Source: an uncultured Roseburia sp.
Lineage (GTDB): Bacteria > Bacillota > Clostridia > Lachnospirales > Lachnospiraceae
NCBI GenBank assembly: GCA_945787015.1
Contig: CALZGM010000021.1
Location: 1 to 64,000, forward strand
DNA length: 64,000 nt
Direction: 5' to 3'
A program made the translations under genes and the position numbers. Of this stretch, positions 1,272-51,557 are shown piece after piece. Position 1 is the first letter of the stretch, and each line of letters opens with the position of its first letter. The notes under the pieces are model-generated. The model was not told where the DNA came from. It worked only from the letters and a program-made list of their open reading frames with translations, and searched no databases.

Positions 1272-3029
1272 TTATTGATAGTTTCGAATGATAATTTGAA
1301 TACTCTCTGTTCCATTATACCTATTTATTTCCGGATAGTATACTATTTTTAGGGAAATTTTATTATTTTTACCTTCTAAAGCCAGCTTTACCTCGTCTTC
1401 CCCAAATTTTTCTCCATAATAGTTCAAAAATTCTTCCACATCTCCAAAATAAACAGCAGAAACTATCTCTCCAAAAGATGTCTCCAACTGTAATCGTAAG
1501 ACATTTCGATTTTTTCCAATAATAGCTGCACGTCTGAGTTTTAAGTCCTTATCTGCAAACAGCGGCTTCGTATTTCCCTTTCCAAAGGGCTCTAATACCT
1601 CAAGTTCCTTCACCAAAGCAGGATTGGGATATCCCACAGGCATTGCAATATCAATCTTTATTTTGGGGATAAAATCCTCCTCTGTAAGTCGGCAGTTTTC
1701 ATTTATCATAGTGCGAAAAGCCGCTACCTTTTCTGCCGGAAGAGACACACCCGCTGCCATTGGATGTCCTCCGAATTTTGTAAATAATTCCCTGCATCTG
1801 CATAATTCTTCATACATGGAATACTCCTCAATCGAACGCCCGGATCCCTTCACACCATCCTCTGCATCTGTTAACACAAATACTGGCTTATGATAAATCT
1901 CTCTGATACGTCCGGCAATAATGCCGGCAAGACTTTCATGGGTATCCGGAAGATAAATTACCAGAACTTTATCTTTTTTGTACTCTCTTTCCACAAGTTC
2001 TTTTGCCAGTTCTACTCCATCTGCTGTCATATCCTTGCGCTGAATATTTAATTCCACCAGCTCTCTTGCGATTGCTGCTGCCTTCTGCTCGTCTTTTTCC
2101 AAAAAGAGCTGCAAAGAAATACGTGCTGTATCCAGTCTTCCACTGGCATTAATGCAGGGACCAAGTACAAACCCGAAGTGATACGCATTCACCTGTTCTA
2201 TTTCCAGTCCGTTCTGTAAAATAAGCGCGCGCATGCCCGGATTTTTTGTATGATGAATCCGACGCAATCCCTCTTTCACCAGAATCCGGTTTTCATCCGT
2301 TAAATCCATCACATCTCCAATGGTTGCAAAGGCTACATTTTCCAAGAACTCGTAACTTTCTTCTGCCGGGATTTCAAAAAGCTCATAAAGCACCTGTATG
2401 ACCTTCCATGCTACTGCTGCACCACAGAGTCCCTTAAACGGATAGAAACAGTCTGCCTGCTTTGGATTCACGATGGCATCTGCTTTACTAATTAGATATT
2501 GTCGTTCTCCATTTGCTTCTTCATAGGGGATTTCATGATGGTCTGTCACCAGAACCGTCATGCCTAGTTCCTTCGCATAGGCGATCTCCTTAATGGCAGC
2601 AATTCCATTGTCGCAGGTTACTATAGTATCAACATCATCTTCTTTTGCCTGTTCAATCAAATGCTCATTGATTCCATATCCATCCTTCAGACGATTCGGA
2701 ATCACAGTACTGACATTTCCGCCCACGCGGCTGATTCCGGAGTACAAAATGAAAGTTGCCATCACTCCATCAATATCATAATCACCAATAATACGAATTC
2801 GCGCACCGGTTTCTATTTTTTCCCTTAAAAGCACACACAAACGGTCCACGTCCTTTAACAGATGTGGATCGTTTGCCTCTGTTATGCTTCCCCTCAAATA
2901 TTTTTCGAATTCTTCCCCCGATATCACATCACGGTTACGAATCAGCCTTGCTGTTAACGGGCTAATACCAAATTTTCTCCCAAGCTCTTCAAAATCTGCC
3001 TTTTTATTAATTACAAACCACTTTTCCAC
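1272..3029 (-). CDS. recJ: Single-stranded-DNA-specific exonuclease RecJ
   Basis: RecJ is a 5'-3' single-strand DNA exonuclease acting in recombinational and mismatch repair. The DHH phosphoesterase core is clear: DYDIDG at residues 83-88 and VTDHHE at 161-166 carry the metal-binding aspartates and histidines, and the DHHA1 region contains FGGHPMAAGVSL. At 585 residues the length is normal for the family. The start codon is GTG at 3029; upstream ATG triplets are out of frame or run into a stop. It precedes the hydrolase gene at 314-1258 and follows the SleC-like gene by 44 bases on the same strand, which suggests a loose operon. No defect is seen. Confidence 0.95.
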   Translation of the reverse strand: MEKWFVINKKADFEELGRKFGISPLTARLIRNRDVISGEEFEKYLRGSITEANDPHLLKDVDRLCVLLREKIETGARIRIIGDYDIDGVMATFILYSGISRVGGNVSTVIPNRLKDGYGINEHLIEQAKEDDVDTIVTCDNGIAAIKEIAYAKELGMTVLVTDHHEIPYEEANGERQYLISKADAIVNPKQADCFYPFKGLCGAAVAWKVIQVLYELFEIPAEESYEFLENVAFATIGDVMDLTDENRILVKEGLRRIHHTKNPGMRALILQNGLEIEQVNAYHFGFVLGPCINASGRLDTARISLQLFLEKDEQKAAAIARELVELNIQRKDMTADGVELAKELVEREYKKDKVLVIYLPDTHESLAGIIAGRIREIYHKPVFVLTDAEDGVKGSGRSIEEYSMYEELCRCRELFTKFGGHPMAAGVSLPAEKVAAFRTMINENCRLTEEDFIPKIKIDIAMPVGYPNPALVKELEVLEPFGKGNTKPLFADKDLKLRRAAIIGKNRNVLRLQLETSFGEIVSAVYFGDVEEFLNYYGEKFGEDEVKLALEGKNNKISLKIVYYPEINRYNGTESIQIIIRNYQ

Positions 3030-3073: not shown

Positions 3074-4336
3074 TTACACCAACTCTGCGATTCTTGTTAC
3101 TGCTACATAAATTTCCGATATCTTATACCATGTACGATAATCAATCACACCTGTTACCGGAAGCCCAAACACAGACTGAAACTTTTCTACCGCAGCCCTT
3201 GTTGCAGGTCCATATATTCCATCCGGCGTCACTGTAGGGATTGCCGGGTAAGCTCTTGAAATCCTAGCCAGTTGCTGTTGTACCTGTCGCACTTTCGGCC
3301 CGGTAGAACCAATGGTAAGATCCATTCCCGGCCAAGATGCCGGAATCCCCGAAATCGTTTCTGCTGTATTGATATACATATTATTTCCATAATAGTAACG
3401 CAGTATTTCAATCGTCTCGTAACCCTGGTCTCCTAAGTATTTGCTACCCCACTGACTTAGCCAGTTACTGCAGGTCACCTGCTGTCCATCGCAATACTGG
3501 GTTAGAATCGGCTGTGTTACATTCGGTCGTGATAAGAAATTCTGGAACATTTCATCTACAATATCCGAAATACTTTGGAAAATATTTCGACCATACGTAA
3601 ACTTCTGGTCAAATGCAGTTGAGGATGTAATCGTAAAATCAAATCCTTTATTCCTGTACCATTCGGTGTAAACTCTGTTCATGGTAAAAGACATGATTGC
3701 CAGTATATTCGCCCGAAGCGTTGCGTCCGGCCAAGTACTGTATATTTCACTGCTGGCTACATTTTTAATGTAATCCTTATAGCGCACATAATAATTTGCA
3801 GCCGTCGGGTCTGTCGGTGCCCCATCATGTACCACCACATATTCCGGGACTACCACTCTGCTTAAAACAATCTCCCCTGTCTCTGCAATAGGCTTAATTT
3901 CCGATTCTGCAATCTTTGGTGGGAAATTACCAAACAACGTATTTACCGGAATAACGATTGTATCGATTCGATTCCCTTCCGCTTCCTCCCTAGTAAGCCG
4001 GACTTTCTGAAGCGAAAGCTGCCCTGAGAAGAGTTCAATTCCCGTAACGGTAAATGGTCGAAACCCAGGTGCAAAAACTTGGATGGTATACTGTGAGAAT
4101 GGCTGGTTCTCCGAGGGTTCCATAGAATATTCAAGTGGAGGCGTATCAAGTGCCACTTCGTCGGACATGCCATTTTCATCCGTCTGCACCTCCTCTAACT
4201 GCTGTCCCGGTTCACCCGAATAAGAAATTTGAATCTGTGCCCCTTTTACCGGTGTATTATCTACCCCTGACACAACTTCTACTTTGAGGTTTCCTTTATC
4301 TACCGTATCTGTCTGCATATATCGCATTTCGTGCAT
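3074..4336 (-). CDS. sleC: SleC-like spore cortex-lytic enzyme (SpoIID-like lytic domain plus peptidoglycan-binding domain)
   Basis: Resembles the clostridial SleC germination enzyme, which degrades spore cortex peptidoglycan. Visible order: a beta-rich N-terminal pro-region (about 15-125, with the phrase DTPPLEYS), then the segment VVVHDGAPTDPTAANYYV, then a SpoIID-type lytic domain with NVASSEIYSTWP (the glutamate near residue 197 corresponds to the SpoIID catalytic Glu), a YCDG and LSQWGSK stretch, and a C-terminal PG_binding_1 domain with GPKVRQVQQQLA and DGIYGPATRAAVEKFQ. The 420-residue length fits SleC (about 430). There is no normal signal peptide, as in SleC. The start has a weak GGA site 7 bases upstream. 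The family is known from spore formers, so the host probably sporulates or did so recently. Processing by a Csp protease is inferred only. Confidence 0.75.
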   Translation of the reverse strand: MHEMRYMQTDTVDKGNLKVEVVSGVDNTPVKGAQIQISYSGEPGQQLEEVQTDENGMSDEVALDTPPLEYSMEPSENQPFSQYTIQVFAPGFRPFTVTGIELFSGQLSLQKVRLTREEAEGNRIDTIVIPVNTLFGNFPPKIAESEIKPIAETGEIVLSRVVVPEYVVVHDGAPTDPTAANYYVRYKDYIKNVASSEIYSTWPDATLRANILAIMSFTMNRVYTEWYRNKGFDFTITSSTAFDQKFTYGRNIFQSISDIVDEMFQNFLSRPNVTQPILTQYCDGQQVTCSNWLSQWGSKYLGDQGYETIEILRYYYGNNMYINTAETISGIPASWPGMDLTIGSTGPKVRQVQQQLARISRAYPAIPTVTPDGIYGPATRAAVEKFQSVFGLPVTGVIDYRTWYKISEIYVAVTRIAELV

Positions 4337-4457: not shown

Positions 4458-6071
4458 TTATTCTACTGTCACAACCTTTGCAAGGTTTCTTGGCTTATCA
4501 ACATCAAAGCCTTTATCTGATGATACATAATATGCTAATAACTGTAATGCTACAGATGCCGGAAATACCATAAAATAATCCTCAATATCCGGTAATGTCA
4601 CCACCTTGTAAGATGGATCCAAGTCTACTGCCAGTTCTTCTTTGATAAAAAGTACAATGTCAGCACCTCGGGATTTCACTTCCTTAATATTGGATAATTC
4701 CTTTGCTATTACATGCACTTCACGCTTTTTTGCCAACATTTTAGTTACTGTATCCGGCACACGTTCCAACGCATCAATAAAACTCTTGACCTCTTCGATA
4801 CCGAAGATACCACGTAAATATGCCATTTTTGCAACCAAAAGATAAAATACAGAAAGCTGTGTTGTGTATGCTTTTGTGCTTGCAACTGCAATTTCCGGAC
4901 CTGCTGCGGTATATAGCACATAGTCACTCTCTCTGGCAATGGAAGATCCTTTTACGTTAATAATAGACAAACAGGTTGAGCCCTGTTTTTTTGCATATTT
5001 CAAAGCCTCTAACGTATCGATGGTCTCTCCGGACTGTGATACTGCAATTACCAGCGTTTTCTCATCTACCACCGGATCGGTGTACATAAACTCAGAAGCC
5101 ATCTCTACATCGATATGCATGTGTACGATTCGTTTTACCAGTGCCTGCGCCACCAGTCCGGCATGTCTTGCTGTTCCGCATGCTACAATACAAATTCTCT
5201 CACACTTTGTAAAAATATCATCCGGCACACCTGCCTCTGAAAAGTCAGGCATCCCATCCTTAATGTAACTCTCAATGGTAGTACGGATTGCATCCGGCTG
5301 CTCCATAATTTCTTTTTCCATGTAAAACGGATATCCTGCTTTTCCGGCACTATTTAGTTCCCAGTCCACTTCCATAAATTCCGGTTCCACTAAATTGCCT
5401 TCAAAATCCGTTAATACGATTTTATCCTTGTGAAGCTCTAAAATATGATACTCCGGCACAACAAAATACTCGTTTGTAAAACGGCACAATGCTGTCAAAT
5501 CCGATGCAAGCATGGCACCCTCTTCACAAATGGTTGCTACAATCGGGCTGACATTACGAACTGCATAAATCACTCCCGGCTGATCATCAAACATAACAAC
5601 AAGTGCAAATGTCCCCTTTAGCTTACGTACAGCCTTTTTTAAGGCTTCATGCGGTTTGCCTTTATAATAATGATTAATCAACGACGCAACAACTTCACTG
5701 TCTGTCTCCGATTTCAGCATATCCTGCATATCATAGCTGTTTATCAAGTCCTTATAGTTCTCTACGATTCCATTGTGAACTAAAGTGACCTGTCCCTGCC
5801 TGTGGGGATGTGCATTCGCATCGGTTACGCCTCCATGCGTTGCCCATCTTATATGCCCGATTCCGCAAGTAGACAGGATTCTCTTTTTCTCACAGATTGC
5901 ACGCAAATCACTGACTCTTCCTGCACATTTGTACACATTTGTCTCCTGTGTCGCATCATTTTTTATCGCAATTCCTGCACTGTCATATCCACGGTACTCT
6001 AAAAGTTCCAATGCATCCAACAGCACATTTTTTACCTCTTCACTTCCTGTATATCCAATAATTCCACACAT
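4458..6071 (-). CDS. glmS: Glutamine-fructose-6-phosphate aminotransferase with an internal in-frame deletion
   Basis: GlmS makes glucosamine-6-phosphate from fructose-6-phosphate and glutamine, the first step of amino-sugar and wall synthesis. The glutaminase half is intact: MCGIIGYTG gives the N-terminal Cys nucleophile, followed by HIRWATHG and VHNGIVENY. The first SIS domain (ACGTARHAG, SQSGETIDT, GPEIAVASTKAYTTQ) and the C-terminal tail DVDKPRNLAKVVTVE are present. However the frame jumps near residue 462 from VIAKELS directly to SNIKEVKSRG, and the block normally between them, with the EGSLKLKEISYIH and AGELKHG motifs, is missing. The protein is 537 residues instead of about 608. The missing block holds the residues equivalent to E. 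coli Lys485, Glu488 and His504, needed for isomerisation, so this copy is predicted inactive as a synthase. The ribozyme upstream is intact. Deletion or assembly artefact are both possible. Confidence 0.9.
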   Translation of the reverse strand: MCGIIGYTGSEEVKNVLLDALELLEYRGYDSAGIAIKNDATQETNVYKCAGRVSDLRAICEKKRILSTCGIGHIRWATHGGVTDANAHPHRQGQVTLVHNGIVENYKDLINSYDMQDMLKSETDSEVVASLINHYYKGKPHEALKKAVRKLKGTFALVVMFDDQPGVIYAVRNVSPIVATICEEGAMLASDLTALCRFTNEYFVVPEYHILELHKDKIVLTDFEGNLVEPEFMEVDWELNSAGKAGYPFYMEKEIMEQPDAIRTTIESYIKDGMPDFSEAGVPDDIFTKCERICIVACGTARHAGLVAQALVKRIVHMHIDVEMASEFMYTDPVVDEKTLVIAVSQSGETIDTLEALKYAKKQGSTCLSIINVKGSSIARESDYVLYTAAGPEIAVASTKAYTTQLSVFYLLVAKMAYLRGIFGIEEVKSFIDALERVPDTVTKMLAKKREVHVIAKELSNIKEVKSRGADIVLFIKEELAVDLDPSYKVVTLPDIEDYFMVFPASVALQLLAYYVSSDKGFDVDKPRNLAKVVTVE

Positions 6072-6099
6072 ATAAATTCCTCTTTCTTTCTAAAACTGC

Positions 6100-6250
6100 T
6101 TAAAATCCTATTATGTCGTATTTGTTTTGCAGTTACCCGCATATTTGCCGACATATCTCGCACTAGGATAGTACGGAAGGACATCCGCCGAATTTTCGAT
6201 AATCCTTCCCCTCGTGAACCTGTCATACTACAGGTGCCTGGCGCTAAAAG
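6100..6250 (-). ncRNA. glmS ribozyme (glucosamine-6-phosphate-activated)
   Basis: The leader of glmS carries the conserved glmS ribozyme core, read on the minus strand. The cleavage site is A|GCGCCAGG (between 6245 and 6244), followed by a P2 arm with ACCTGTAGTATGACAGGT, then ACGAGGGGAAGGATTATCG, the invariant AAAATTCGGCGGATGTCC, and the pseudoknot segment GGGTAACTGCAAAACAAA near 6121-6138. The ribozyme ends about 30 bases before the glmS ATG. Known biology: glucosamine-6-phosphate acts as cofactor for self-cleavage, and RNase J then degrades the downstream mRNA, giving feedback control. All core elements appear intact, in contrast to the damaged coding sequence it controls. Confidence 0.93.
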
Positions 6251-6337
6251 GAATCTATATGCCTGTTCTTTTACTACAGAATTAAGTATCTGAAAATAGA
6301 ATGATATAAAGTTTTCAAAGTTCAATGCAGTAACTAT

Positions 6338-6396: not shown

Positions 6397-6440
6397 TATT
6401 ATTTGATATTATTTGATATTATTTGATATTATTTGCTATT
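6397..6440. repeat. 10-bp tandem repeat at the ilvE stop
   Basis: The unit ATTTGATATT occurs three times exactly (6401-6430), followed by one variant ATTTGCTATT (6431-6440). The last unit touches the ilvE stop codon at 6439-6441, and the array lies between the stop and the terminator hairpin. Probably replication slippage in a non-coding spacer. Confidence 0.75.
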
Positions 6441-7503
6441 ATTTTACTTCTACGGTCCAACCGTATTTATCCTCTAATCTGCCCCACTGAATACCTGTCA
6501 ATGTATCATAAAGCTTCTGCGTCAATTCGCCGATTTTAAAATCGTTAATTGTCACTACATCATCTTTATAGCGCAACTCACCAACCGGAGAAATAACGGC
6601 TGCTGTACCGGTACCAAATACTTCTTCCAAAGTACCGTCATGGCCGGCTTTCATTAAGTCATCAATGGAAAGTCTTGTCTCATTTACCTTATAACCCCAG
6701 TCTCTTAATAAATGAATCATGGAATCTCTGGTAACACCCGGCAGTACTGTTCCTTCGATTGGCGCGGTGTAAATCTCACCTGCAATCTTAAACATAATGT
6801 TCATGGTTCCCACTTCTTCTACATATTTACGATGTTCTCCATCTAACCAGAGTACCTGTGAATATCCCATCTTCTCTGCTTTTACCTGTCCTAAAATGGA
6901 ACCTGCATAGTTACCACCGCATTTTGTAAAACCTGTTCCACCTTTTACAGCACGAACCAGCTCATCTTCCACTAAAATCTTAACCGGGTTAATACCCTCT
7001 GCATAATAAGCACCAACCGGACAGCAGATAATCATGAATTTGTAAGAAGATGCCATATGAACACCCAAGGCAGACTCTGTTGCAAACATAAACGGGCGAA
7101 TGTAAAGAGAGGTCTCCGGTTCAGACGGAACCCAGTCTTCTTCTACGTTAACAAGTGCCTTAACAGCCTCTACAAACATGTCTACAGGAAATCCCGGCAT
7201 ACACAATCTTTCATTGGAACGAATCATACGTTTTGCATTCATTTCCGGGCGGAATAGCTGAATCTTTCCTTCTGCGGTACGATATGCTTTCATTCCTTCA
7301 AAGGTTTCCTGTGCATAATGCAGCGTTACACAAGCCGGATCTAACGTAATCGGTGCATGAGGCTCGATTCTTGCATCATGCCAGCCCTCATCCTTGGTCC
7401 AGTCCATAACAAACATGTAATCTGTCATATACTTACCAAAGCCAAGATGCTTCCAATCCGGTTTTTCCTTTAACACTTCTCTTTTTACAAATCTGATATC
7501 CAT
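6439..7503 (-). CDS. ilvE: Branched-chain amino acid aminotransferase
   Basis: A PLP-dependent fold-type IV transaminase that interconverts leucine, isoleucine and valine with their 2-oxo acids, using glutamate/2-oxoglutarate. Family marks include HYAQETFEGMKAYR, the region TKCGGNYAGSI with the PLP-lysine context, EEVGTMNIMF and GTGTAAVISPVG. At 354 residues it matches the usual BCAT length. GGAGG lies 10 bases before the ATG. It is flanked downstream by its own terminator and appears monocistronic. No anomaly other than the tandem repeat at its stop. Confidence 0.95.
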   Translation of the reverse strand: MDIRFVKREVLKEKPDWKHLGFGKYMTDYMFVMDWTKDEGWHDARIEPHAPITLDPACVTLHYAQETFEGMKAYRTAEGKIQLFRPEMNAKRMIRSNERLCMPGFPVDMFVEAVKALVNVEEDWVPSEPETSLYIRPFMFATESALGVHMASSYKFMIICCPVGAYYAEGINPVKILVEDELVRAVKGGTGFTKCGGNYAGSILGQVKAEKMGYSQVLWLDGEHRKYVEEVGTMNIMFKIAGEIYTAPIEGTVLPGVTRDSMIHLLRDWGYKVNETRLSIDDLMKAGHDGTLEEVFGTGTAAVISPVGELRYKDDVVTINDFKIGELTQKLYDTLTGIQWGRLEDKYGWTVEVK

Positions 7504-8144: not shown

Positions 8145-11100
8145 TTATTTTACTACTATTTTTGCCATTTCAGACATTATTTTTTGGGATAACTGTTTCA
8201 TATCCTTTTTTACGACCTTGCATACCTTACGGTCATAGGTATATAAACCGTTTATCTCATCTTCCACATCACTTAGCTGCGTATAGACACAGCCACAGAC
8301 TCCTTTTTCAATTCCCGGAAGAATCATAGCTTCATACATGTCTGTAATCATCTTCGTCAATTCTTTTGCATTCTCTGCTCCGCCATAGCCATAGGTATTA
8401 TATTTACTATAATAGTGTCCCTCTTCTACTGCAGAATAGCCACCGCACTCTGACACCAGAAGCGGACGCTCCTTTACCTCTAAATCAATCGTCTTAAAAT
8501 AAATATGCTCACTGTCAAAATCATTTTTTTCCTGTGCAAACCACCCTGAAGTACTGTCAACCAAACGGCTGTCATCCAGTTCTTTTGCCATATCATACAT
8601 GGCATCACTTTCAAACTGTCCCCAGCCTTCATTAAATATGGTATAGGCAATAATACACGGATGATTGTAAAGATGCCCAATTGTTTTTTTCGTATGCTTT
8701 TTAAAAATTTCTCTGGTCCGATTATTTCTTCCACCGATATCCTTTCGGATCTTCATCCCAATAGTTGGCAACGCTGTATCACGCAGAAACGAATACCCAC
8801 CATTATTTACCATATCCTGCATAACAAGCATTCCATGCTTATCACAATAATAGTAAAAACTTTCCGGTTCTATCTTAATATGCTTCCGCAAGAAATTATA
8901 TCCAATTTCCTTCATGCGGAGAATGTCTCTCTCATACTCCTTTGGTTCTGCCGGAAGAAAAATGCCATCCGGATAATATCCCTGATCCAAAACTCCATGC
9001 AGAAAAACCGGTGTGCCATTTAAGCAGACACGGTTTATACCGTTTACATTTTGAATATCGATTGTTCTTAAGGCAAAGTACGAACACACTTCATCCTCTG
9101 CAGTCTTAATCGTTAGATCATATAGATACGGCTGATCTGTGGACCAAAGTTTTGGCCGGTAACTGCTGCCATCCGCACAGATATGATTCGTCAGCTGAAT
9201 TCTGCCGCTTGTTCCCATAAACTGCTTTGTATAAGTCTCTCCATTTGAAAGCGAAACGGCAACTGAAAATCCATCAATACCATCCCCCTTTATCGTAAGG
9301 TCAATTCCTTCCAAATCCGGTTTGATCACCACTTTTTCGATAGAATGCTCTGGCACATTTTCCATCCACACACTCTGCCAGATGCCGCTTACCGGAGTAT
9401 ACCACATACCGCCGCGTTTTCTGCACTGCTTTCCATAGGGATACTCTCTTGATAAAGTATCTGTTACTTTCAACGTGATTTTATTTTCTGCATCACGGGA
9501 TACGAACTCTGTCACATCTACCGTAAACGGCAGATAACCGCCCTTATGTACTCTGGCAAATTTACCGTTTACCCACACTTCTGCCACCTGATCAACTGCA
9601 CCAAAGTGGAGCAGAATTCTCTCTTTTGTAAAGGTTTCCGGAATACGAATTACTGTTTCATACAGGAGTCTGGAACCGATTTTATGCGGATAATCCGATA
9701 ACATTGCCTGTGGTGGAAACGGCATCGAAATCGGTTTTCCATTTAAAGTCCAGTTTTCGTTCAATATCACATATCCTTCACGCTTCAACTGCGGTCTTGG
9801 ATAAACGTCCCATGGATTACTGTACTCTTCACTCTTTCTGCCTTCTCTTACCGCTTCTCCGGCTTTTGCCCACAATTCATAATGCCCCTTGCGAATCATA
9901 AGAAACAGTCCCCATAATGCCACTGATAAAACAACAGCTGTAAGAATTGCCGCTATCCATATATTTTTATTCGGAAGAAACGAATAAGTTCCATCATTAT
10001 TTGCAATCTGCTTTGCATTACGAAGAGCGAATGCACCGATTGCAGAACCAATCACACCCGGAACCAATACCTGTCCGATAATACGCACTCCTTGGAATCT
10101 TCCGGCCATGCTTTCCGGAATATGTTCCCTTATCTTTGCAACAAATACCGCCATACCGCTTAAATAGCCGCTTAACATAAATACGGTTCCGATAAACACC
10201 GGCACGGTGGTTTCCGTCAATAGCAAAATTACGTAGCCGGTGAATAGCATCACCACTACCGGAACCACACTTTTTTCAAATTTTAGCTGGTCATATAGCC
10301 TTCCGTATATCGCCGTCACAATTGCTGCCAAAACGATAGCCGGAGCAAATATGATTACATAGTTGGTCATCTGCAATGTTTTTTCATAATAAACAATCAG
10401 ATACGGCATAAAAGTCTGAATAGAAATACAAAACAGTGCAAATGTCCCAATTACTGCATAAAGCAGTTTGTTTTCCTTAAAAGTGGAGATACGAAAGCTG
10501 TAGATCACATTTTCCCAGTAAGACTCTTTTGCTGTCGCTTCCTTTTCCGGTGTATTGGTTTCTTCCACTAAGAAAATGCCCAAAGCTCCTATCAGAAATA
10601 CAATTACACCAATCACCATAAAAATCACAGTCCAGCTTTTTGCCTGTTCCAAATCAAATCCCATAAAGCCGCCGAATACCAACAGGATGGAGAGCAGTGG
10701 CATCATCGCATTGATGCCTTCAATTTTGCCGCGATTAGAAGCATCCCCCTCATCCGTCAGCCATGCGTTATATGCCGCATCGTTTGCTGCTGAACCGAAA
10801 AAAGTCATGATGCAGTCCAACGCGATTACCAAATTGATTCCCAATGCTGCTGCTTTTACGGCATTGCCACAGATTGGTGTCAATACATCCATACGCACCA
10901 AACCGAACGCTACTATGGATATTCCCCAAACCAGATAGCCCCCGCACATAAAAACTTTTCTTTTCCCTATGCGGTCAGACAGCGCTCCGATTAAGATGGT
11001 CGTTACAGTAGCTGCCACAGAACTTGCTCCTACCATAAGTGAAATATCCGCCGGCTGTGCGTGGAACATCTTATATATGAACACGTTTAAATACATGTTC

Positions 11101-11177
11101 TCCACTACCCATGCCACCTGTCCGATCAGTCCAAACAGTATCATTGCCATCCAAAACTTTTTTCCTAATTTCCCCAT
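8145..11177 (-). CDS. MFS transporter fused to a family 2 glycoside hydrolase
   Basis: One uninterrupted frame of 1010 residues encodes two enzymes. Residues 1 to about 440 form a major facilitator superfamily permease with about 12 hydrophobic segments and the loop GALSDRIGKRKVF typical of MFS loop 2-3. After a charged linker (GEAVREGRKSEEYSN) a GH2 enzyme begins with PWDVYPRPQLKREGY, then the sugar-binding jelly roll, and a catalytic barrel with the acid/base in FNEGWGQF near residue 848 and the nucleophile in LVSECGGY near residue 909. Both catalytic glutamates are present. With an even number of helices the glycosidase would sit in the cytoplasm at the transporter exit. The start at 11177 has GAGGG 4 bases upstream and lies one base after the cyclase stop, so the two genes are translationally coupled. 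The sugar is unknown (beta-glucuronide or beta-galactoside are possibilities). Confidence 0.85.
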   Translation of the reverse strand: MGKLGKKFWMAMILFGLIGQVAWVVENMYLNVFIYKMFHAQPADISLMVGASSVAATVTTILIGALSDRIGKRKVFMCGGYLVWGISIVAFGLVRMDVLTPICGNAVKAAALGINLVIALDCIMTFFGSAANDAAYNAWLTDEGDASNRGKIEGINAMMPLLSILLVFGGFMGFDLEQAKSWTVIFMVIGVIVFLIGALGIFLVEETNTPEKEATAKESYWENVIYSFRISTFKENKLLYAVIGTFALFCISIQTFMPYLIVYYEKTLQMTNYVIIFAPAIVLAAIVTAIYGRLYDQLKFEKSVVPVVVMLFTGYVILLLTETTVPVFIGTVFMLSGYLSGMAVFVAKIREHIPESMAGRFQGVRIIGQVLVPGVIGSAIGAFALRNAKQIANNDGTYSFLPNKNIWIAAILTAVVLSVALWGLFLMIRKGHYELWAKAGEAVREGRKSEEYSNPWDVYPRPQLKREGYVILNENWTLNGKPISMPFPPQAMLSDYPHKIGSRLLYETVIRIPETFTKERILLHFGAVDQVAEVWVNGKFARVHKGGYLPFTVDVTEFVSRDAENKITLKVTDTLSREYPYGKQCRKRGGMWYTPVSGIWQSVWMENVPEHSIEKVVIKPDLEGIDLTIKGDGIDGFSVAVSLSNGETYTKQFMGTSGRIQLTNHICADGSSYRPKLWSTDQPYLYDLTIKTAEDEVCSYFALRTIDIQNVNGINRVCLNGTPVFLHGVLDQGYYPDGIFLPAEPKEYERDILRMKEIGYNFLRKHIKIEPESFYYYCDKHGMLVMQDMVNNGGYSFLRDTALPTIGMKIRKDIGGRNNRTREIFKKHTKKTIGHLYNHPCIIAYTIFNEGWGQFESDAMYDMAKELDDSRLVDSTSGWFAQEKNDFDSEHIYFKTIDLEVKERPLLVSECGGYSAVEEGHYYSKYNTYGYGGAENAKELTKMITDMYEAMILPGIEKGVCGCVYTQLSDVEDEINGLYTYDRKVCKVVKKDMKQLSQKIMSEMAKIVVK

Positions 11178-11178
11178 A

Positions 11179-12606
11179 CTACCCTCTCTCAAAACTCTTT
11201 TGCCTTGCTTTATACTCGTACATTTTTTTATCCGCATGCTGCAATACGATTTCTAAGTTGTCTCTGCTTCCCTTTTCCCTGGTTGCATAACCATAGGAAG
11301 CTGTTATTTCATATAAAAAATTCAGAGCAGTACTTTTTTCTTTTAAAATGGCCTCCAGTGCTGCCCATAATGCTTTTATCTCATCCTCCGTCACATCCAG
11401 CATCACTGCAATAAATTCGTCGCCTCCCATTCTTCCTACAAACCCCACTTGTCCGAAAGTGTTCTCTAACGCATCACTGTAAATGCAAAGCAACTCATCT
11501 CCTTTTTCATGTCCATAGGTATCATTTACATACTTAAAACGGTTTAAGTCCATATAGGCAATGGTAACTGCCTTATCTCTTTTTTTCTCCAGGAATTCCA
11601 ACAAATCGTAACAAGCGGCACGGCTATTACATTTGGTTAGTGTATCTGTATAGATTTTTCCATTGCTCCTATGCCAGCGATAAATGATAAGACTCACACA
11701 AAATACCAATAAAACACTGCAAAACGCCAATAATATCCGAAAATCATCCATAAAGGAGTATAATGCTGTGATTTCGGTTACCGGAACTATCTGTACGATT
11801 ACCCAGTTATAATTGCTTAAATAAGTGAGAATGGCCTCATACTCTACTCCGTTTAGTTTTATTCTTCCCTTTTTACTTTCTTTTTCTGCTATCGCTTTTC
11901 GAAGCAATTCCAGTTCCGAATTTTTCGTATTATAAATTGATTCCTTTTTTACCACTTTTTTCGGGTCATCAGATGTCAAATAAACACCGGACGTATTTAA
12001 AATAAAGCATTCGCCATCAAGGATAATCTCATTTGTCTGAAGCAAATCCCGAAGATCCGTCAAGTAGATTGTTCCGCAAAGTACCCCTACTTTTTCTCCT
12101 GCATCATTATACATGGAAACACAAGCTGTAATAAATACCGTTCCCGAGTAGGTATAAAACGGATCCGTTACAAATACCTCATTCTCCATAATATCTTCGA
12201 AAAACTTCTCGCCCTTCTGATTTCTGTGTACGCCCTCATCAATATAAAATCCGACACCATCCGTATTCATAACAAAAATATTACCAAATCCAAAATCTCC
12301 TGCATGTTCTTTCAGGAATTCTTCCTGCCGGCTTTCCTCCATTTCATAAATCTCCGGGTACTTTGTCAATGCCTGCAGTATCTTTATTTTTTCATCAATA
12401 TAATTATCAAAGTGCTTTTTCTGATTAACGGACAGGTTCTCTAATACCGTTTGAACCAGTTCCGTCTGTCTGGTCTTTGCTCTTTCGGTATACGTAGCAA
12501 ACGTAAACAGCAAAAAAACAAGGGATATCGTTGTTCCCAAAAGCATAAAATAATCAAAAGGTTTTAATTTCAGTCTTTGTACATGTAAACGGCTATGCTT
12601 CTTCAT
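11179..12606 (-). CDS. Membrane diguanylate cyclase with extracellular Cache sensor (GGDEF)
   Basis: A predicted c-di-GMP synthase. Order: a transmembrane helix near residues 18-40, an extracellular double-Cache-like sensor (about 50-285, with FGNIFVMNTDGVGFYID and TACVSMYNDAGEKVGVL), a second helix near 295-315, then a GGDEF domain with DLNRFKYVNDTYGHEKGD and the active-site loop RMGGDEF intact. No EAL domain is present. The start at 12606 is chosen for a GGAGG 7 bases upstream; an in-frame GTG at 12630 lacks one. The stop is followed after one spare base by the MFS-glycosidase ATG, so ligand sensing and sugar uptake may be linked, which is an inference from gene order. Confidence 0.9.
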   Translation of the reverse strand: MKKHSRLHVQRLKLKPFDYFMLLGTTISLVFLLFTFATYTERAKTRQTELVQTVLENLSVNQKKHFDNYIDEKIKILQALTKYPEIYEMEESRQEEFLKEHAGDFGFGNIFVMNTDGVGFYIDEGVHRNQKGEKFFEDIMENEVFVTDPFYTYSGTVFITACVSMYNDAGEKVGVLCGTIYLTDLRDLLQTNEIILDGECFILNTSGVYLTSDDPKKVVKKESIYNTKNSELELLRKAIAEKESKKGRIKLNGVEYEAILTYLSNYNWVIVQIVPVTEITALYSFMDDFRILLAFCSVLLVFCVSLIIYRWHRSNGKIYTDTLTKCNSRAACYDLLEFLEKKRDKAVTIAYMDLNRFKYVNDTYGHEKGDELLCIYSDALENTFGQVGFVGRMGGDEFIAVMLDVTEDEIKALWAALEAILKEKSTALNFLYEITASYGYATREKGSRDNLEIVLQHADKKMYEYKARQKSFERG

Positions 12607-32482: not shown

Positions 32483-33475
32483 TTAGCATATTCTAGGAAG
32501 CCCTTCGCCCTGCAGTACTTCTAAGTTTCTGAGTCCTCCGATACCGGTCACAAGATACAATTTCCCGGGTTCTTCTTTGGTTACCGTTCCGATTGCCACA
32601 GCCCCTTCGCCGTACTTCGCACTGCGCATTGCCTCAAGTGCCCTCTCCTTCTGCTCTGCCGGTACGATTGCTACCAGTTTCCCCTCGTTTCCCATATAAA
32701 GCGGATCTAAGCCAAGCAAACCGCAGAAATCCCGCACCTGCGGTGTTACCGGAAGTGCTTTTTCTTCCAAAGTAATCGTTGTACCTGAAGCCTGTGCCAG
32801 CTCTTTTAAAACTGTTGCAAGACCGCCTCTGGTCACATCCCGCATGGTATGTACCTCCACACCTGCTGTAAAGAGTGCTTCCACGATTTCTCCCAGAGGT
32901 GCATTATCACTCTCAATATGATTTGTAATTCCCATGCGGCTGGATAGAATGGCTGCATGATGGTCGCCCACGTTGCCGGATACGATTACCACGTCCCCCT
33001 CCTGCACTTTCACAGCGGATACGTCCCGTTCTTCAGGGACAAAGCCTACTCCGGTTGTATTGATATAGCACTCACCGGCTCCGGTCACAACCTTCGTATC
33101 ACCCGCTACGATTGTTACACCTGCTTCCTTTGCCGTTTCTGCCATAGCATGTACAATCTCCTGTAAAACAGATACTTCCATGCCCTCCTGTAAAATAAAA
33201 CCGCAGGTAATATATTTGGGTTTCGCGCCCCGCATCAAAAGGTCATTTACGGTTCCGCAGATGCAAAGACGCCCGATATTTCCGCCCGGATAACACATGG
33301 GTGTCACTACAAAGCTATCCGTTGTCACTGCGATTTTTCCGCTTCCGACTACTACCGCAGAATCCTCCATCTGATTTAAGGTATCATTTGCAAACTCCTT
33401 TGCAAATACTGCGCTAATCAGTTCACTTGTGGCTGCTCCGCCACTACCGTGAACCATGCTGATTCTTTCTTCCAT
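32483..33475 (-). CDS. hypE: Hydrogenase maturation protein HypE
   Basis: HypE dehydrates a carboxamide on its C-terminal cysteine to thiocyanate, donating cyanide to the iron of [NiFe] hydrogenases. The protein has the AIR synthase-like fold (MVHGSGGAATSELI, VTTDSFVV, VSGNVGDHHAAIL, RDVTRGGLATVLKELA) and ends in GLPRIC, the required C-terminal cysteine. 330 residues is normal. Last gene of hypF-hypC-hypD-hypE. It must act with HypF and HypC-HypD for the Ech hydrogenase encoded 13 kb away. Confidence 0.96.
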   Translation of the reverse strand: MEERISMVHGSGGAATSELISAVFAKEFANDTLNQMEDSAVVVGSGKIAVTTDSFVVTPMCYPGGNIGRLCICGTVNDLLMRGAKPKYITCGFILQEGMEVSVLQEIVHAMAETAKEAGVTIVAGDTKVVTGAGECYINTTGVGFVPEERDVSAVKVQEGDVVIVSGNVGDHHAAILSSRMGITNHIESDNAPLGEIVEALFTAGVEVHTMRDVTRGGLATVLKELAQASGTTITLEEKALPVTPQVRDFCGLLGLDPLYMGNEGKLVAIVPAEQKERALEAMRSAKYGEGAVAIGTVTKEEPGKLYLVTGIGGLRNLEVLQGEGLPRIC

Positions 33476-33545
33476 ATCTAAAACTAATCCTTTCCTACTC
33501 TATCCGGGCTGCGTCTTTTCCACCACACGTTTGCATGCAAATGCG

Positions 33546-34580
33546 CTACATGGATGCAAATGCACTGTGGCAGCTGCCCTCCGTGGATACCATACAGGCA
33601 CCCTGCGGTGTCAAAGGTTTACATACTTTTGCAAATAACGGGCATTCCGCCGGGCTCATTTTTCCCATCAGAATCTTGTCACAGCAACATGCCTTATTTT
33701 TCTTATTGTCTTCGTTTAACAAAAGGCTTCCGGCATCGTAGTTTCTATACTCCGGCCGCAGCACCAGTCCGGTGCCAGGGATACTCCCCATTCCGCGCCA
33801 GGTCGCATCGGCAGGCATAAAATACTGCGTTACCAGCTTTTTCGCTTTTTCATTTCCTTCTGCAGTGACCACCTTCGGGTAGCAGTTTTTCACCACACCA
33901 TTCCCGCGCTCTTTTACGAGCTCATACAACGCATATAAAATCTCAGTTCCTTCAAATCCGCTCACTACAAATGGTATCTGATAATTTTCTGCCAGTGGTT
34001 TAAAAATGTCGCTTCCGGTGACTGCTGCCACATGCCCCGGTGCTAAAAAGCCATCCATTTCTGCCCCATTTCGGCACAACTCATCGATGACCCCCGGCAT
34101 TGTTTTTAAAGCAGTCAAAAGCTTTACATTTGTCAAATCTTTTTCTATCACTTCATCCAGTAAAAGCGCATACACCGGTGTGGTCGTCTCAAATCCCACT
34201 GCTGCAAAAATAAAGTTGGTCTGTGGCTCTTTTTCCGCCATAGCAATAATGTCCATTGGCGAATACACCATAACCGCTTTTGCTCCTACACCGGCTGACT
34301 CACTAAGAGAGGTCTTACTGCCCGGCACGCGTAGCATATCACCGAAGGTCACCACGCAGGTATCCGGCGTCATGGCAAGCTCCACAAGGCGGTCCACATA
34401 AGCCGTCGGTGTCACACACACCGGACATCCCGGTCCTGACAAAAGCTTAATATTAGGAGAAAGCATTCCACGGATGCCATTTTTAGAAATAGCTGCCGTA
34501 TGGCTTCCGCAGACCTCCATGATGCGCATCTTCGGTCCGTCATATTCTTTTAAAAACTGTTTTATCTCTTCCAAATTCAT
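33546..34580 (-). CDS. hypD: Hydrogenase maturation protein HypD
   Basis: The iron-sulfur scaffold on which the Fe(CN)2CO unit is built with HypC. Conserved parts: MRIMEVCGSHTAAISKNGIR, LLSGPGCPVCVTP (with essential cysteines), FAAVGFETTTP, PFVVSGFEGTEIL, and the C-terminal cluster cysteines in ACCCDKILMGKMSPAECPLF and TPQGACMVSTEGSC. 344 residues, close to the usual 350-370. The stop of hypC is directly before its start (no gap), so the genes are coupled. A 70-base gap separates it from hypE. Confidence 0.96.
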   Translation of the reverse strand: MNLEEIKQFLKEYDGPKMRIMEVCGSHTAAISKNGIRGMLSPNIKLLSGPGCPVCVTPTAYVDRLVELAMTPDTCVVTFGDMLRVPGSKTSLSESAGVGAKAVMVYSPMDIIAMAEKEPQTNFIFAAVGFETTTPVYALLLDEVIEKDLTNVKLLTALKTMPGVIDELCRNGAEMDGFLAPGHVAAVTGSDIFKPLAENYQIPFVVSGFEGTEILYALYELVKERGNGVVKNCYPKVVTAEGNEKAKKLVTQYFMPADATWRGMGSIPGTGLVLRPEYRNYDAGSLLLNEDNKKNKACCCDKILMGKMSPAECPLFAKVCKPLTPQGACMVSTEGSCHSAFASM

Positions 34581-34796
34581 TTATGAAAAGCCTCCCACGT
34601 CCTCCATGAGTTCCGTCAGGCTTAATGCCTCTTCGGTGGACACCTTCTGCAATATGCATCCGGCATGCACTAACACATAGTCGCCCTCCTTAATATTCAC
34701 AAGTCCCATTCTTGCCGTCACAAGATTTCCTGAGAAATCCACGACTGCATCTTTTTCATTTATCTTTACTACTTTTCCCGGTAATGCTACACACAT
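34581..34796 (-). CDS. hypC: Hydrogenase chaperone HypC
   Basis: A 71-residue HypC/HupF chaperone that carries the iron unit from HypD to the large-subunit precursor. It starts MCVALPGKVVKI with the essential Cys2, and has GLVNIKEGDYVLVHAGCIL. The hypF frame runs 41 bases into this gene, which implies coupled translation. Only one HypC-type protein is in the window. Confidence 0.95.
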   Translation of the reverse strand: MCVALPGKVVKINEKDAVVDFSGNLVTARMGLVNIKEGDYVLVHAGCILQKVSTEEALSLTELMEDVGGFS

Positions 34797-37143
34797 AACG
34801 GTACTCCTTTCTTATAGAACAAAAAATCTGTCCCAAAGCGATTCCGCCATCGCCGCAAGGCACTTTTTCATTGGTATAAACTTCTTTTCCGGCAGCATGT
34901 AATCCTTCTGCCACTTCGTTCAGTAAAATGCGGTTTAAAAAGCTTCCACCGCTTAACACCACCTTATTATACTCCTTGCCGGCGGATTCTGCCATAGTAA
35001 CAATTGCCTTTGCAATGGCATGATGAAACAGATAGGCAAGAACCTCTTTCTGATTCTCATATTGCCTTTTTAATTCACTCAAGTCGGCAAGCAGTTTTAC
35101 ACCATCCGCGATCCACATGCCATCCTGCTTTGTCACATCTGCAGTTAAAAGTTTTTCCCTGCCACCTTCCTGTAACTGTAAAAACTTCTCTTTTCCTTTA
35201 TGAGCAGCCTGCTCCAATAAAATGGCACACTCGCCCTCATACGAATTATAATGACAAATTTCTAACAATGCACTTGCGGCATCAAACAGTCTTCCCATAG
35301 AAGAGGATAAGGCTGTATTAATGTTCTGCTTCCATGCCATTTCCTGTAGACGTTCTGTTTCGCCTGATATGCCCATCTCTATATCCCGGCAGGTTTCGTC
35401 CCCAATAAAAAGTCCCCGTTCACGCGCTTCCATCCGATAGGAAAACAAGGTCTTGTCTGCATCCTTCGCACCGGCATCTCCACCTAACAACCTTACCATG
35501 CCAAAGTGTCCCACACGTTCCATCTTTCCATTGTTATAGGTAAAAAACTCACTTCCCCAGATGGTTCCATCCGTTCCATACCCGGTTCCGTCACAGGCAA
35601 TTCCAAGGATGTTTCCCTCTAACCGGTGTTCTGCAATCACAGATGCCACATGCGCCATATGATGCTGTATTTTTATATTTGTATCCTTTGCAGAAACATA
35701 AGCCGGATGCAAATCACCGACAGAAACTTCCGGCGTCAGCGCAAGTAACTCTTTCATTCGTGTAATTGCGTTACTACGCTGTTTCATACAGCGCACTTCT
35801 TCCAAATCACCAAAATACTGGCTTAGATATACCATTTTCCCACGTCCCAGTGCAAATGTGGCTTTCAAATCGCCACCTGCTGCAAAGGTATCCGCATTGA
35901 GCGAATGTGCCAGTTCAATCGGCTCCGGCACGAGTCCTCTTGCTCTGCGTAAAAGCTGCACGAAGCTTCCATTTACCTGATATATGGAATCGTCCAGCGG
36001 AGTCAAAATTTCTCTGTCATGGGTTAGCATGAAATCCGGACAGCCTTCTTCCATCAGTTTTTTCATTTCCTCTTCATTAGTAATAATCGGTTCGCCGCCC
36101 CGGTTCCCACTGGTCATGACAAGTGGTCCTGTTTCTTCTATTAATAAAATCTGTAACGGGTTACAGGGTAAAAATGCTCCCATCCGATCACTCTCACCAC
36201 AAATTTCCGTCACAAAATCCTTCTTCTTTTTTAACAGCACAATCGGTCTCGCATTTGAGGTCAGAAGTTCCTCCTCTTTCGAAGATACCTCACAGAACTC
36301 CCGAATGGCTTCTATACCTGGGAACATGACCGCAAACGGTTTTTTATCCCGATGCTTAAATTCGCGAAGTCTTTTTGCTGCTGTACTGCTCATCGGTGAA
36401 AATGCAAAATGGAAGCCACCAATATCTTTGATTGCTACAATTTTTTCCTCTTTTAAAGCCTTTACGGTCTGTGTCAGAATCGCTTCTGTATCCTTTTCAA
36501 GAATAACAAATTTCCCGGCACTGCCCACGCTTACCAGCTTTAGCGTCGGACCGCAAGTATGGCAGGCAATGGTCTGTGCATGCCGCCTGATATTTCCCTT
36601 TTTCGTATACTCATTCAAACATTCCGAGCACATTTCAAAATCGCCCATGGTAATGCTATCCCTGTCATATGGCACTTCCCTTTGAATGGAATAACGAGGT
36701 CCGCACTGCGTACAGCTGATAAACGGATACCGGTACCTGCGATTCTTTTTATCAAAAAGCTCTTCCCTACAACGGTCACAGGTTGGAAAATCCACCGGTA
36801 ACAGACGTACCTCTTCCCGCCCGTTGCTGCTTTCTGCAATTACAAACTGTTTCTGTACCGGCGAGTCGATTTGTGCACAACTCCCCATTTTTGTCGAAGT
36901 GCAGGCTGCATCATACGGCACATCCTGCACCTTAAGAGAATCAATTCTGCCAACCGGCAGCAAGCTTAGGCGATGAAGAAACTTCTCCACCGCCTCATTT
37001 TCTCCGGAAGCGAAGATTTCCACCACACCTCCCATATTTTTCACTTGTCCTGCCAACTTACATTCTTCTGCCAGTTCTGCTACTGCCGGGCGAAATCCCA
37101 CGCCCTGCACCAGACCTGTAACAGTAATTTTCTTCGCTTGCAT
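34756..37143 (-). CDS. hypF: Carbamoyltransferase HypF
   Basis: HypF makes the carbamoyl-AMP-derived group passed to HypE. Domain order from the chosen start: acylphosphatase (VTGLVQGVGFRPAVAELA), two zinc-finger blocks (CDRCREEL, CTQCGPRY, CSECLNEY, CHTCGPTL), a YrdC-like domain (EKIVAIKDIGGFHFAF, PFAVMFP) and a Kae1-like carbamoyltransferase domain (KIQHHMAHVASVIAEH, ACDGTGYGTDG, VVLSGGSFLNRILL). The frame is open to 37254 but the family begins at MQAKKITVTG (37143); the ribosome binding site there is weak. The end extends 41 bases into hypC, longer than the usual DGGIALGQ ending. Confidence 0.94.
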   Translation of the reverse strand: MQAKKITVTGLVQGVGFRPAVAELAEECKLAGQVKNMGGVVEIFASGENEAVEKFLHRLSLLPVGRIDSLKVQDVPYDAACTSTKMGSCAQIDSPVQKQFVIAESSNGREEVRLLPVDFPTCDRCREELFDKKNRRYRYPFISCTQCGPRYSIQREVPYDRDSITMGDFEMCSECLNEYTKKGNIRRHAQTIACHTCGPTLKLVSVGSAGKFVILEKDTEAILTQTVKALKEEKIVAIKDIGGFHFAFSPMSSTAAKRLREFKHRDKKPFAVMFPGIEAIREFCEVSSKEEELLTSNARPIVLLKKKKDFVTEICGESDRMGAFLPCNPLQILLIEETGPLVMTSGNRGGEPIITNEEEMKKLMEEGCPDFMLTHDREILTPLDDSIYQVNGSFVQLLRRARGLVPEPIELAHSLNADTFAAGGDLKATFALGRGKMVYLSQYFGDLEEVRCMKQRSNAITRMKELLALTPEVSVGDLHPAYVSAKDTNIKIQHHMAHVASVIAEHRLEGNILGIACDGTGYGTDGTIWGSEFFTYNNGKMERVGHFGMVRLLGGDAGAKDADKTLFSYRMEARERGLFIGDETCRDIEMGISGETERLQEMAWKQNINTALSSSMGRLFDAASALLEICHYNSYEGECAILLEQAAHKGKEKFLQLQEGGREKLLTADVTKQDGMWIADGVKLLADLSELKRQYENQKEVLAYLFHHAIAKAIVTMAESAGKEYNKVVLSGGSFLNRILLNEVAEGLHAAGKEVYTNEKVPCGDGGIALGQIFCSIRKEYRYVCSITGKSSKDK

Positions 37144-37196
37144 TTTAACAATGCCCTTTCTTTCGTCAAAATCCCCGCACCTATTTAGGTCACGTT

Positions 37197-38249
37197 CTAT
37201 GCACGAATAGCCCAACGCATCTTCGTTGATTTTGCTCGGCTGTTTCTTGCACATTCCTCCGCAGACGGACGAATCACATCCTTGGATACTTCACGATAAA
37301 TACCCGCCTTTTCCAGTTCCTTAAAGGAACGTTTCACCAACCGGTCCTCTCCGGAATGGAAAGTTAAAATCGCGACTCTTCCGTTTGGTGCCAATACCTC
37401 CGGTAATTTTTCCAAAAAAGCATACAATACTTCAAACTCACTATTTACATCAATCCGCAACGCCTGAAAGGTTCTGGCACAGGATTTTTTGATTGCCTCA
37501 TCCCGTTCTGCCTTTGGAACACGGCAAAGTGCTTCGGTAATGACTTCCTTCATCTGTGTCGTCGTTTCAATCACCTTTCCGTCCTTAAACCACTTCATAA
37601 CTCTGGCTGAAATTTCCTTTGCATATGGTTCATCTGAATTTTCTACCAGCATTCCAACGAGTTCCTCTTCCGAAACCTCTTTTAACCTTTCCGCTGCGCT
37701 CACACCCTTCAAGGGATTTAAACGCAAATCAAGCGGTCCTTCTACCTTATAAGAAAATCCGCGTTCCGGATTATCGATCTGCATAGAAGAGACACCTAAA
37801 TCTGCCAGAACAAAATCAAACTTCTTTCCGGTCTCCTTTGTCACCAAATCAATGTCCGCAAAGTTTTGTAACCGCACAGTTAAAATATCTTCTCCAAATC
37901 CCTGATTTGCCAATCGTTCTTTGGTTTTTGCTGATTCAATTGGGTCCACATCCAATGCATAGATATGTCCCTGACCCTCTAATTTCTGCAGCATGGCCTT
38001 CGTATGACCACCATATCCAAGGGTCGCATCTAATCCTATCTGCCCCGGTTTAATCTGTAAAAAATCCAGAATTTCCTGCACCATAATGGAAATATGCATA
38101 CCGGCAGGGGTACTGCCTTTTCTGATTACCTTTTCAATGGTATCCGCATATTTCTCCGGATTATGTTCCTTATATTTTTCCTGATAGCTTCTCGGATGGG
38201 TACCCGAATAACGCACGCGGCGCTTATGCTGTTTTTCCTGATTTTCCAT
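37197..38249 (-). CDS. rsmH: 16S rRNA (cytosine-N4)-methyltransferase RsmH-type, paralogue outside the dcw cluster
   Basis: A MraW/RsmH-type methyltransferase. It has an N-terminal extension of about 55 residues rich in Lys and Arg, then HISIMVQEILDFL, DATLGYGGHTKAML, DLGVSSMQIDNPERGFSY and AILTFHSGEDRLVKRSF. RsmH normally lies with division genes; here it is next to hypF, so it may be the second paralogue that some Lachnospiraceae carry. The start at 38249 has GAGG 8 bases upstream; a GTG start at 38270 is possible. It may be cotranscribed with hypF, 53 bases downstream. Confidence 0.85.
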   Translation of the reverse strand: MENQEKQHKRRVRYSGTHPRSYQEKYKEHNPEKYADTIEKVIRKGSTPAGMHISIMVQEILDFLQIKPGQIGLDATLGYGGHTKAMLQKLEGQGHIYALDVDPIESAKTKERLANQGFGEDILTVRLQNFADIDLVTKETGKKFDFVLADLGVSSMQIDNPERGFSYKVEGPLDLRLNPLKGVSAAERLKEVSEEELVGMLVENSDEPYAKEISARVMKWFKDGKVIETTTQMKEVITEALCRVPKAERDEAIKKSCARTFQALRIDVNSEFEVLYAFLEKLPEVLAPNGRVAILTFHSGEDRLVKRSFKELEKAGIYREVSKDVIRPSAEECARNSRAKSTKMRWAIRA

Positions 38250-46267: not shown

Positions 46268-46810
46268 TTAGTTCTCCTCTTTCATAGAGATGCACTTCTT
46301 TGGGCAATTGCTTTCACACAGTCCGCAGCTGACACATGCATCTTTATTTAATTCCCATTTCTTTTCTGTCCGGTCTACTGTAATTGCACCCTGCGGGCAC
46401 TTCTTTGCACAAAGTGTACAGAATACACAAACTTCCGTATCTGCCTGAGGAAATTTTTTCTTCTCCTCTACCGGCTTTTCATAAGTAGCAGATGCTTTCA
46501 TAGACATCGGCTCCTGATAGCCCGGCACAATCGACAAACACTTTTTTGGACATTTTTCGGTACAGTATCCACACTGCACACAATCAAAGCGATTGATGGT
46601 CCACGTTCCGGCTTTGCGGTCTACCGTAATAGCACGGGAAGGACAGTTCATACTGCATAAACCGCATAAAATACAGTCCTCGATATTGATTTCTATATGT
46701 CCTCTGCTGCGCTCCGGATAAACGGCTGGTTCGGCAGGATAATTCTTTGTAACTGGCTTTGAAAATAAATTCTTTAAAACCGTGTTCTTAAAGCTCATAA
46801 GTTTTGCCAT
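46268..46810 (-). CDS. echF: Polyferredoxin-like subunit EchF of Ech [NiFe] hydrogenase
   Basis: An electron-transfer subunit with four [4Fe-4S] motifs in 180 residues: CILCGLCSMNCP, CVQCGYCTEKCP, CVFCTLCAKKCP and CVSCGLCESNCP. Classical EchF/NuoI subunits have two, so this protein appears to be a tandem duplication joined by a Pro/Lys-rich linker (about 95-110). It should connect soluble ferredoxin to the EchC cluster. The start at 46810 has AGGAGG 10 bases upstream. Gene order echA-B-C-D-E-F-hypA is compact. Confidence 0.88.
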   Translation of the reverse strand: MAKLMSFKNTVLKNLFSKPVTKNYPAEPAVYPERSRGHIEINIEDCILCGLCSMNCPSRAITVDRKAGTWTINRFDCVQCGYCTEKCPKKCLSIVPGYQEPMSMKASATYEKPVEEKKKFPQADTEVCVFCTLCAKKCPQGAITVDRTEKKWELNKDACVSCGLCESNCPKKCISMKEEN

Positions 46811-46823
46811 TTTTACGTTCCTC

Positions 46824-47903: not shown

Positions 47904-47912
47904 AACTTCCTC

Positions 47913-48727: not shown

Positions 48728-48737
48728 AATCTTTTGC

Positions 48738-49604: not shown

Positions 49605-49605
49605 A

Positions 49606-51519: not shown

Positions 51520-51557
51520 TTTCACACTCTCCCTATTTTATAATCATAACCGACATT

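Follow-up and report, generated by a model that had tools for sequence, protein, structure and literature searches.

Background

GlmS, glutamine--fructose-6-phosphate transaminase (EC 2.6.1.16), combines in its functional form a class II glutaminase domain bearing an N-terminal Cys with two SIS (sugar isomerase) domains. Here we analyze a glmS gene of an uncultured Roseburia sp. and the ribozyme upstream of it, located in a stretch of 64,000 nucleotides (contig CALZGM010000021.1 of assembly GCA_945787015.1, positions 1 to 64,000; hereafter "the window"). A published account of GlmS names Cys1 as the glutaminase residue and Glu488, His504 and Lys603 as the residues of isomerisation (PMC9272926). 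The normal role of the glmS ribozyme, according to a second account, is self-cleavage triggered by glucosamine-6-phosphate (GlcN6P), after which the glmS mRNA decays (PMC11477304). The window gene lacks a stretch that includes two of the isomerisation residues, and its ribozyme is close to intact. The evidence makes it likely that a recent slippage event inactivated this redundant, ribozyme-controlled gene, with a complete copy that is not under ribozyme control covering for it.

A shortened glmS with a lost catalytic block

The shortened gene occupies positions 4458-6071 on the reverse strand, an open reading frame (ORF) of 537 codons with no internal stop, whose product starts with MCGI. We place it in glmS type A; types A, B and a third type are our own classes, set by bands of identity to the window protein. 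An alignment of 30 proteins, comprising the window protein, its counterpart in a distant congener (G036) and 28 full-length congeners (604-608 residues, one of 624), revealed that 69 residues are absent from the window GlmS between K457 and E458. The corresponding 69-column block is ungapped in all 28 full-length congeners, which also all carry ELKHG, and the window and G036 proteins are without both. Inside the block are the motifs GSLKLKE and GELKHG and the counterparts of E. coli Glu488 and His504, in columns that were placed by hand count on the alignment; in a second alignment, with many rows from outside the genus, these columns are occupied by E and H in every one of 36 full-length rows. 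Aligned to E. coli chain 2j6h_A, the window GlmS falls into two pieces, one running to 463 and the other resuming at 525.

A preliminary description of this DNA had reported an uninterrupted frame with a missing catalytic block, and both parts of that statement agree with the alignment. The block was indeed lost, and its figures of a junction near residue 462 and about 70 residues are sharpened to K457/E458 and 69. Among the catalytic motifs that it listed as lost, the AGELKHG-type motif and the counterparts of Glu488 and His504 were found by alignment to lie in the block, and E. coli Lys485 is presumably a further active-site residue there. The range that it gave for the gene, 4458-6250, covers the ORF and, beyond it, sequence that belongs to the ribozyme (6102-6256).

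The N-terminal glutaminase domain (5352-6071, reverse strand; approximately residues 1-240) is kept together with the Cys after the initial Met, as indicated by a match to Pfam GATase_6 at residues 68-190 and an alignment to E. coli 1xff_A over residues 2-231. The domain is also modeled well in a predicted structure of the short protein. The earlier suggestion of a glutaminase-only protein is thus possible, as far as the encoded domains can tell. The first SIS domain is also kept (4830-5213, reverse strand; Pfam SIS at residues 287-414) and is the sole SIS stretch found; each short protein, that of the window and that of G036, has one such stretch, and each of two full-length controls has two. 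What is left of the second SIS domain is a C-terminal remainder that, with the terminal tail RNLAKVVTVE, occupies 4461-4700 on the reverse strand and aligns to residues 525-608 of 2j6h_A, through the last residue of that chain, including the counterpart of Lys603; in the predicted structure this remnant of the second domain has two strands and helices. Because the catalytic block is lost, synthase activity of the shortened protein is almost certainly gone. Its score against NCBIfam TIGR01135 (572.6 bits, in two stretches) is above the cut-off of 418.05, so automatic annotation could label it GlmS. Private changes at otherwise invariant columns do not discriminate: there is one in the window protein (T74I), three in G036 and from 0 to 7 in 36 full-length rows, one of which owes three to X letters.

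The glmS ribozyme (RF00234) lies upstream of the shortened gene at 6102-6256 on the reverse strand, and cmscan matched it at 79.3 bits (gathering score 37) over the full model, positions 1-167 of 167. Its core had been called perfect; near-perfect is more accurate, as in an alignment of 19 sequences, read by eye, the window ribozyme has one C where each of the other 18 has a purine. Ribozymes were found at all five type A loci with upstream sequence (the window, L040, L041, L042 and L045), at 15 of 19 further type A loci, one of which (L047) is on the same contig as L045, and at three of three loci of the third type. L062, L064, L072 and L079 gave no match, and no glmS ribozyme was found at L038, L039, L043 or 12 more type B loci. 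L079, from an uncultured Roseburia sp., has a type A glmS of full length, and the 3000 bases upstream contain no RF00234 match that exceeds the gathering score; the remaining loci with a Roseburia name in that scan are unlike it in this respect.

The deletion junction

The nearest genome found, G048, is that of a sister species, and its glmS retains the block. Over the 307 residues that are shared (the G048 contig is cut), the two genes are 96.4% identical in protein and 92.7% identical in nucleotide sequence. Two copies of the 8-base sequence CAAAGGAA flank the block in G048 at a distance of 207 bases. A single copy remains in the window, at 4698-4705 on the reverse strand, and codon alignment and a repeat scan identify it as the deletion junction, with 207 bases lost relative to the sister. 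Sequence flanking the junction matches G048. The type A block was found nowhere else in the window genome, where the only matches to it are two type B copies at 59% identity; a move of the block to another place in the genome was rejected on these grounds. A slippage deletion, as had been proposed, is supported by the retained block of the sister, the reduction of the repeat to one copy and the absence of a type A block elsewhere. The proposal of a repeat at both ends was right in kind, CAAAGGAA being an exact pair in G048, and wrong in its sequence, since the TTATCCAAT-like repeat then named is only degenerate in the sister (6 of 9 bases).

The G048 piece contains 14 exact direct repeats of at least 8 bases (spacing 60-600), the CAAAGGAA pair among them; that pair is not the longest, as one other has 10 bases. 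When the counts for six genes that keep the block are summed, 78 of 107 such repeats are frame-preserving; an in-frame result is therefore the likelier one, and a loss that keeps the frame says little for a retained function. The rates of nonsynonymous (dN) and synonymous (dS) substitution between the window and G048 genes are 0.017 and 0.331, a ratio of approximately 0.05. Four full-length pairs, chosen for closeness, have ratios of 0.04-0.09 (one with a dS of 1.39, near saturation). The resemblance to full-length pairs means that no relaxation is visible, implying that the loss is young or that the remaining protein is still constrained.

Other glmS genes of the window genome

The window genome (3,305,552 bases in 59 contigs, 99.65% complete) has three glmS loci, the type A gene and two of type B, only one of the three intact. 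Dependence on a second glmS had been raised as a possibility and finds support in the sequence, since the genome search identified a candidate for that role: a complete type B gene on contig C17 (L038:5788-7656) that encodes 622 residues, carries EGSLKMKEISYIH and AGELKHG, and has no ribozyme in the surrounding 16 kb. The genes beside it are presumably metA and ligA. The other type B copy, on contig C1 (L039:8079-9873, G000:C1), is out of frame, lacks the SQSGET motif and is a net 86 nt shorter than the C17 copy, to which it is 82-84% identical in DNA sequence. Over the first 340 codons the two copies differ by a dN of 0.045 and a dS of 1.3, which suggests that both were probably long under constraint.

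In many congeners the type B gene has an LCP-like gene on one side and a degP-like gene on the other. Of 13 further type B loci, 12 have a degP-like gene close by and 10 an LCP-like gene, with one weak match in the latter group; L162, a contig of 3.8 kb, is too short for its neighbors to be judged. The broken C1 copy occupies such a site, and the intact C17 copy does not. In the sister genome G048, whose contig ends at this point, a type B gene ahead of degP is preserved at least in its 3' part.

A second shortened gene in the genus

G036, the distant congener, is a draft genome of about 250 contigs that is 82% complete. Its GlmS has 534 residues, is preceded by a ribozyme and lacks, in frame, 72 residues of nearly the same block, with other breakpoints. 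In the tree G036 groups with G011, away from the window (support 85). The short form as a single inherited trait was rejected, since the sister G048 keeps the block and the breakpoints and tree position of G036 differ. The preliminary description had looked to relatives with the same shorter protein and proven activity; G036, independently shortened, is such a relative in form only.

No second GlmS was found in the 82% complete G036 assembly, in which the LCP-degP site is without glmS; a second gene could be within the fifth of the genome that the assembly lacks. Two nagA-like matches over the cut-off make N-acetylglucosamine (GlcNAc) salvage conceivable in G036, and a nagB-like match was found only below the cut-off. 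If G036 truly has only the short GlmS, dependence on external amino sugars would be predicted, or an unexpected activity. The G036 glmS has more private changes than those of its relatives (54 vs. 25 against G021). Unusually fast evolution was nonetheless rejected as a sign specific to this gene, since in these comparisons, which are local alignments only, ilvE is faster still (40 vs. 9 against G011) and recJ is fast as well (69 vs. 38 against G004). The peptidoglycan-binding gene is mostly without such an excess, which appears in one of ten comparisons (35 vs. 20).

Distribution of the short form

A search of 62 genomes of the genus found a match in at least 58 of them among the matches listed. 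By hand count over the same matches, 57 genomes have GlmS, of which 26 have type A, 9 the third type and 22 type B only, and types A and B occur together in the window genome and G010. Also among the matches listed, a short glmS that is not cut by a contig end occurs only in the window genome and G036; those of G048, G020 and G047 look contig-cut, judging from coordinates and frame length. G033, a genome of the same genus that is 99% complete, gave no GlmS or PurF-like match at E <= 0.001 among the matches listed, which reflects either a true lack of the gene or a failure of the search.

The family sample gave matches at E <= 1e-60 in 139 of 150 genomes, and besides the window genome there are four frames shorter than 590 residues, in all of which the match starts at most 11 bases from a contig end. 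In the order, 106 of 146 genomes matched, with three other frames below 590 residues (G522, G537 and G557), all running into contig ends. The two samples share genomes, and the window genome is counted in each. Contig-cut frames aside, no comparable gene was found in the 138 other matched genomes of the family or the 105 of the order. A query with the junction, which detects only close relatives of type A, matched 28 of 397 family genomes at E <= 1e-22, the window included, and only in the window did the alignment cross the junction in one piece. For the best 80 of 153 relatives in named genomes, matches span 1803-1872 bases, with the exception of L094, which is cut at a contig start. The junction pattern had 0 matches in viral contigs and none in plasmids (near mode).

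Explanations for the loss

In the account that we favor, slippage between two 8-base direct repeats would recently have deleted 207 bases of the type A glmS, taking with them the first half of the second SIS domain, two isomerisation residues included. The cell would tolerate this loss because the complete, ribozyme-less type B GlmS on C17 is predicted from its sequence to supply GlcN6P. The type A gene may then be a young pseudogene or specify a dead enzyme, and its ribozyme may not have had time to decay; thus orphaned, the ribozyme would still sense GlcN6P and throttle an mRNA that encodes no synthase. Most likely we see here an unremarkable loss of a redundant gene at an early stage, to which the parallel in G036 is a puzzling companion.

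Several observations weigh against this account. The deletion preserves the reading frame, in which no further defect is seen, as expected of a protein that is kept, and the low dN/dS fits a kept function equally well. In the predicted structure of the short protein the shortened second domain is mostly confident, and the model superposes on E. coli GlmS across 522 residues. Eight other genomes of the family have two GlmS genes, with every frame at least 609 residues long, indicating that redundancy does not routinely end in such a loss. Nor does redundancy explain G036, where nearly the same block was lost independently and in frame, and the assembly has no second GlmS.

A rival reading gives the short protein a retained role, as a glutaminase, a sugar-phosphate-binding dead enzyme or a mixed-dimer partner of the full GlmS, tuned by GlcN6P through the ribozyme. 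We consider this improbable. Frame-keeping is common among direct repeats and so needs no selection, the low dN/dS cannot separate retained function from recency, and, contig-cut frames aside, the 138 other matched family genomes and 105 other matched order genomes yielded no third case. The structure model, moreover, was built on an alignment in which 36 of 38 rows are full-length, and at the junction (residues 461-468) its predicted local distance difference test score (pLDDT) is below 50. Slightly more doubtful is the proposal that selection has twice, independently, favored removal of the catalytic block from ribozyme-controlled GlmS in this genus, giving a GlcN6P-regulated non-synthase (a glutaminase, a sensor or a dominant partner of the second GlmS). 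An artefact of assembly or library, with the block present in the genome, is as improbable as a kept function: the species is represented here by one assembly, and both this genome and G036 are drafts (59 and about 250 contigs), but the repeat, at 8 bases, does not reach the length of assembly k-mers and is internal to a contig of 66,191 bases. The flanks also agree with the sister, the assembly holds no unplaced copy of the block, and a different deletion disrupts another glmS in this genome. Least probable of all is a reversible or programmed rearrangement, or a population that mixes long and short forms. In-phase copies of AAGGA on both sides of the block in seven of seven congeners checked mean that slippage there may recur; however, with the type A block absent from the whole assembly, it could be restored only from foreign DNA, and the neighboring ORFs look unlike recombinases by eye, with no dedicated test beyond a Pfam scan of 3074-4336.

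Neighboring genes and other features of the window

Upstream of glmS is a gene that we take to be ilvE-like (6439-7503), and downstream are a gene for a peptidoglycan-binding protein, identified by Pfam (3074-4336), and one that is presumably RecJ-like (1272-3029), the ilvE and RecJ names being assumed from translations. In stretches of differing length from 12 other genomes of the genus, counterparts of ilvE were found in 6, those of the RecJ-like gene in 7, once only in part, and those of the gene for the peptidoglycan-binding protein in 10. Elsewhere in the window, a 1030-residue ORF at 8145-11237 (reverse strand) joins an MFS_1 transporter (residues 49-390) to glycoside hydrolase family 2 domains (residues 490-906) by Pfam, an apparent transporter-glycosidase fusion. 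A TwoAYGGAY RNA (RF01731) lies at 69-233 on the forward strand (106.1 bits). The reverse-strand regions 32483-37254 and 46268-51525 look, from their ORF translations, like hydrogenase maturation genes (hypE, hypD, hypF) and an Ech-type membrane hydrogenase cluster, as we assume.

Comparison with known systems

Titles and abstract openings in the open-licence PubMed Central literature yielded nothing on a pseudogenised glmS under a ribozyme, no report of a GlmS with a truncated isomerase domain, a glmS pseudoenzyme or a ribozyme together with a second glmS, and, among the matches listed, nothing on glmS in Roseburia that is relevant here. If the account that we favor is true, a ribozyme-switched essential enzyme has been displaced by an unswitched paralogue and the RNA switch left behind. 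In that case the gene also demonstrates that a ribozyme match together with a family-model score above the cut-off is no proof of a working enzyme.

The window protein resembles GlmS (TIGR01135) in its glutaminase domain with an N-terminal Cys, its first SIS domain, its C-terminal tail and its score over the cut-off, and differs in lacking the 69 residues of the second SIS domain that bear the Glu488 and His504 counterparts. Its ribozyme is like RF00234 elsewhere in its full-model match, normal score and place upstream of the gene, whereas the enzyme that it precedes is shortened and probably inactive, and none was matched near the intact GlmS of the genome. The gut bacterium Akkermansia muciniphila, according to a published account, is without GlmS and needs GlcNAc or N-acetylgalactosamine (GalNAc) (PMC5902328). 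It offers a precedent for gut life on external GlcNAc or GalNAc, and a possible model for G036; as described there it has no glmS gene whatever, whereas the window genome has an intact second GlmS.
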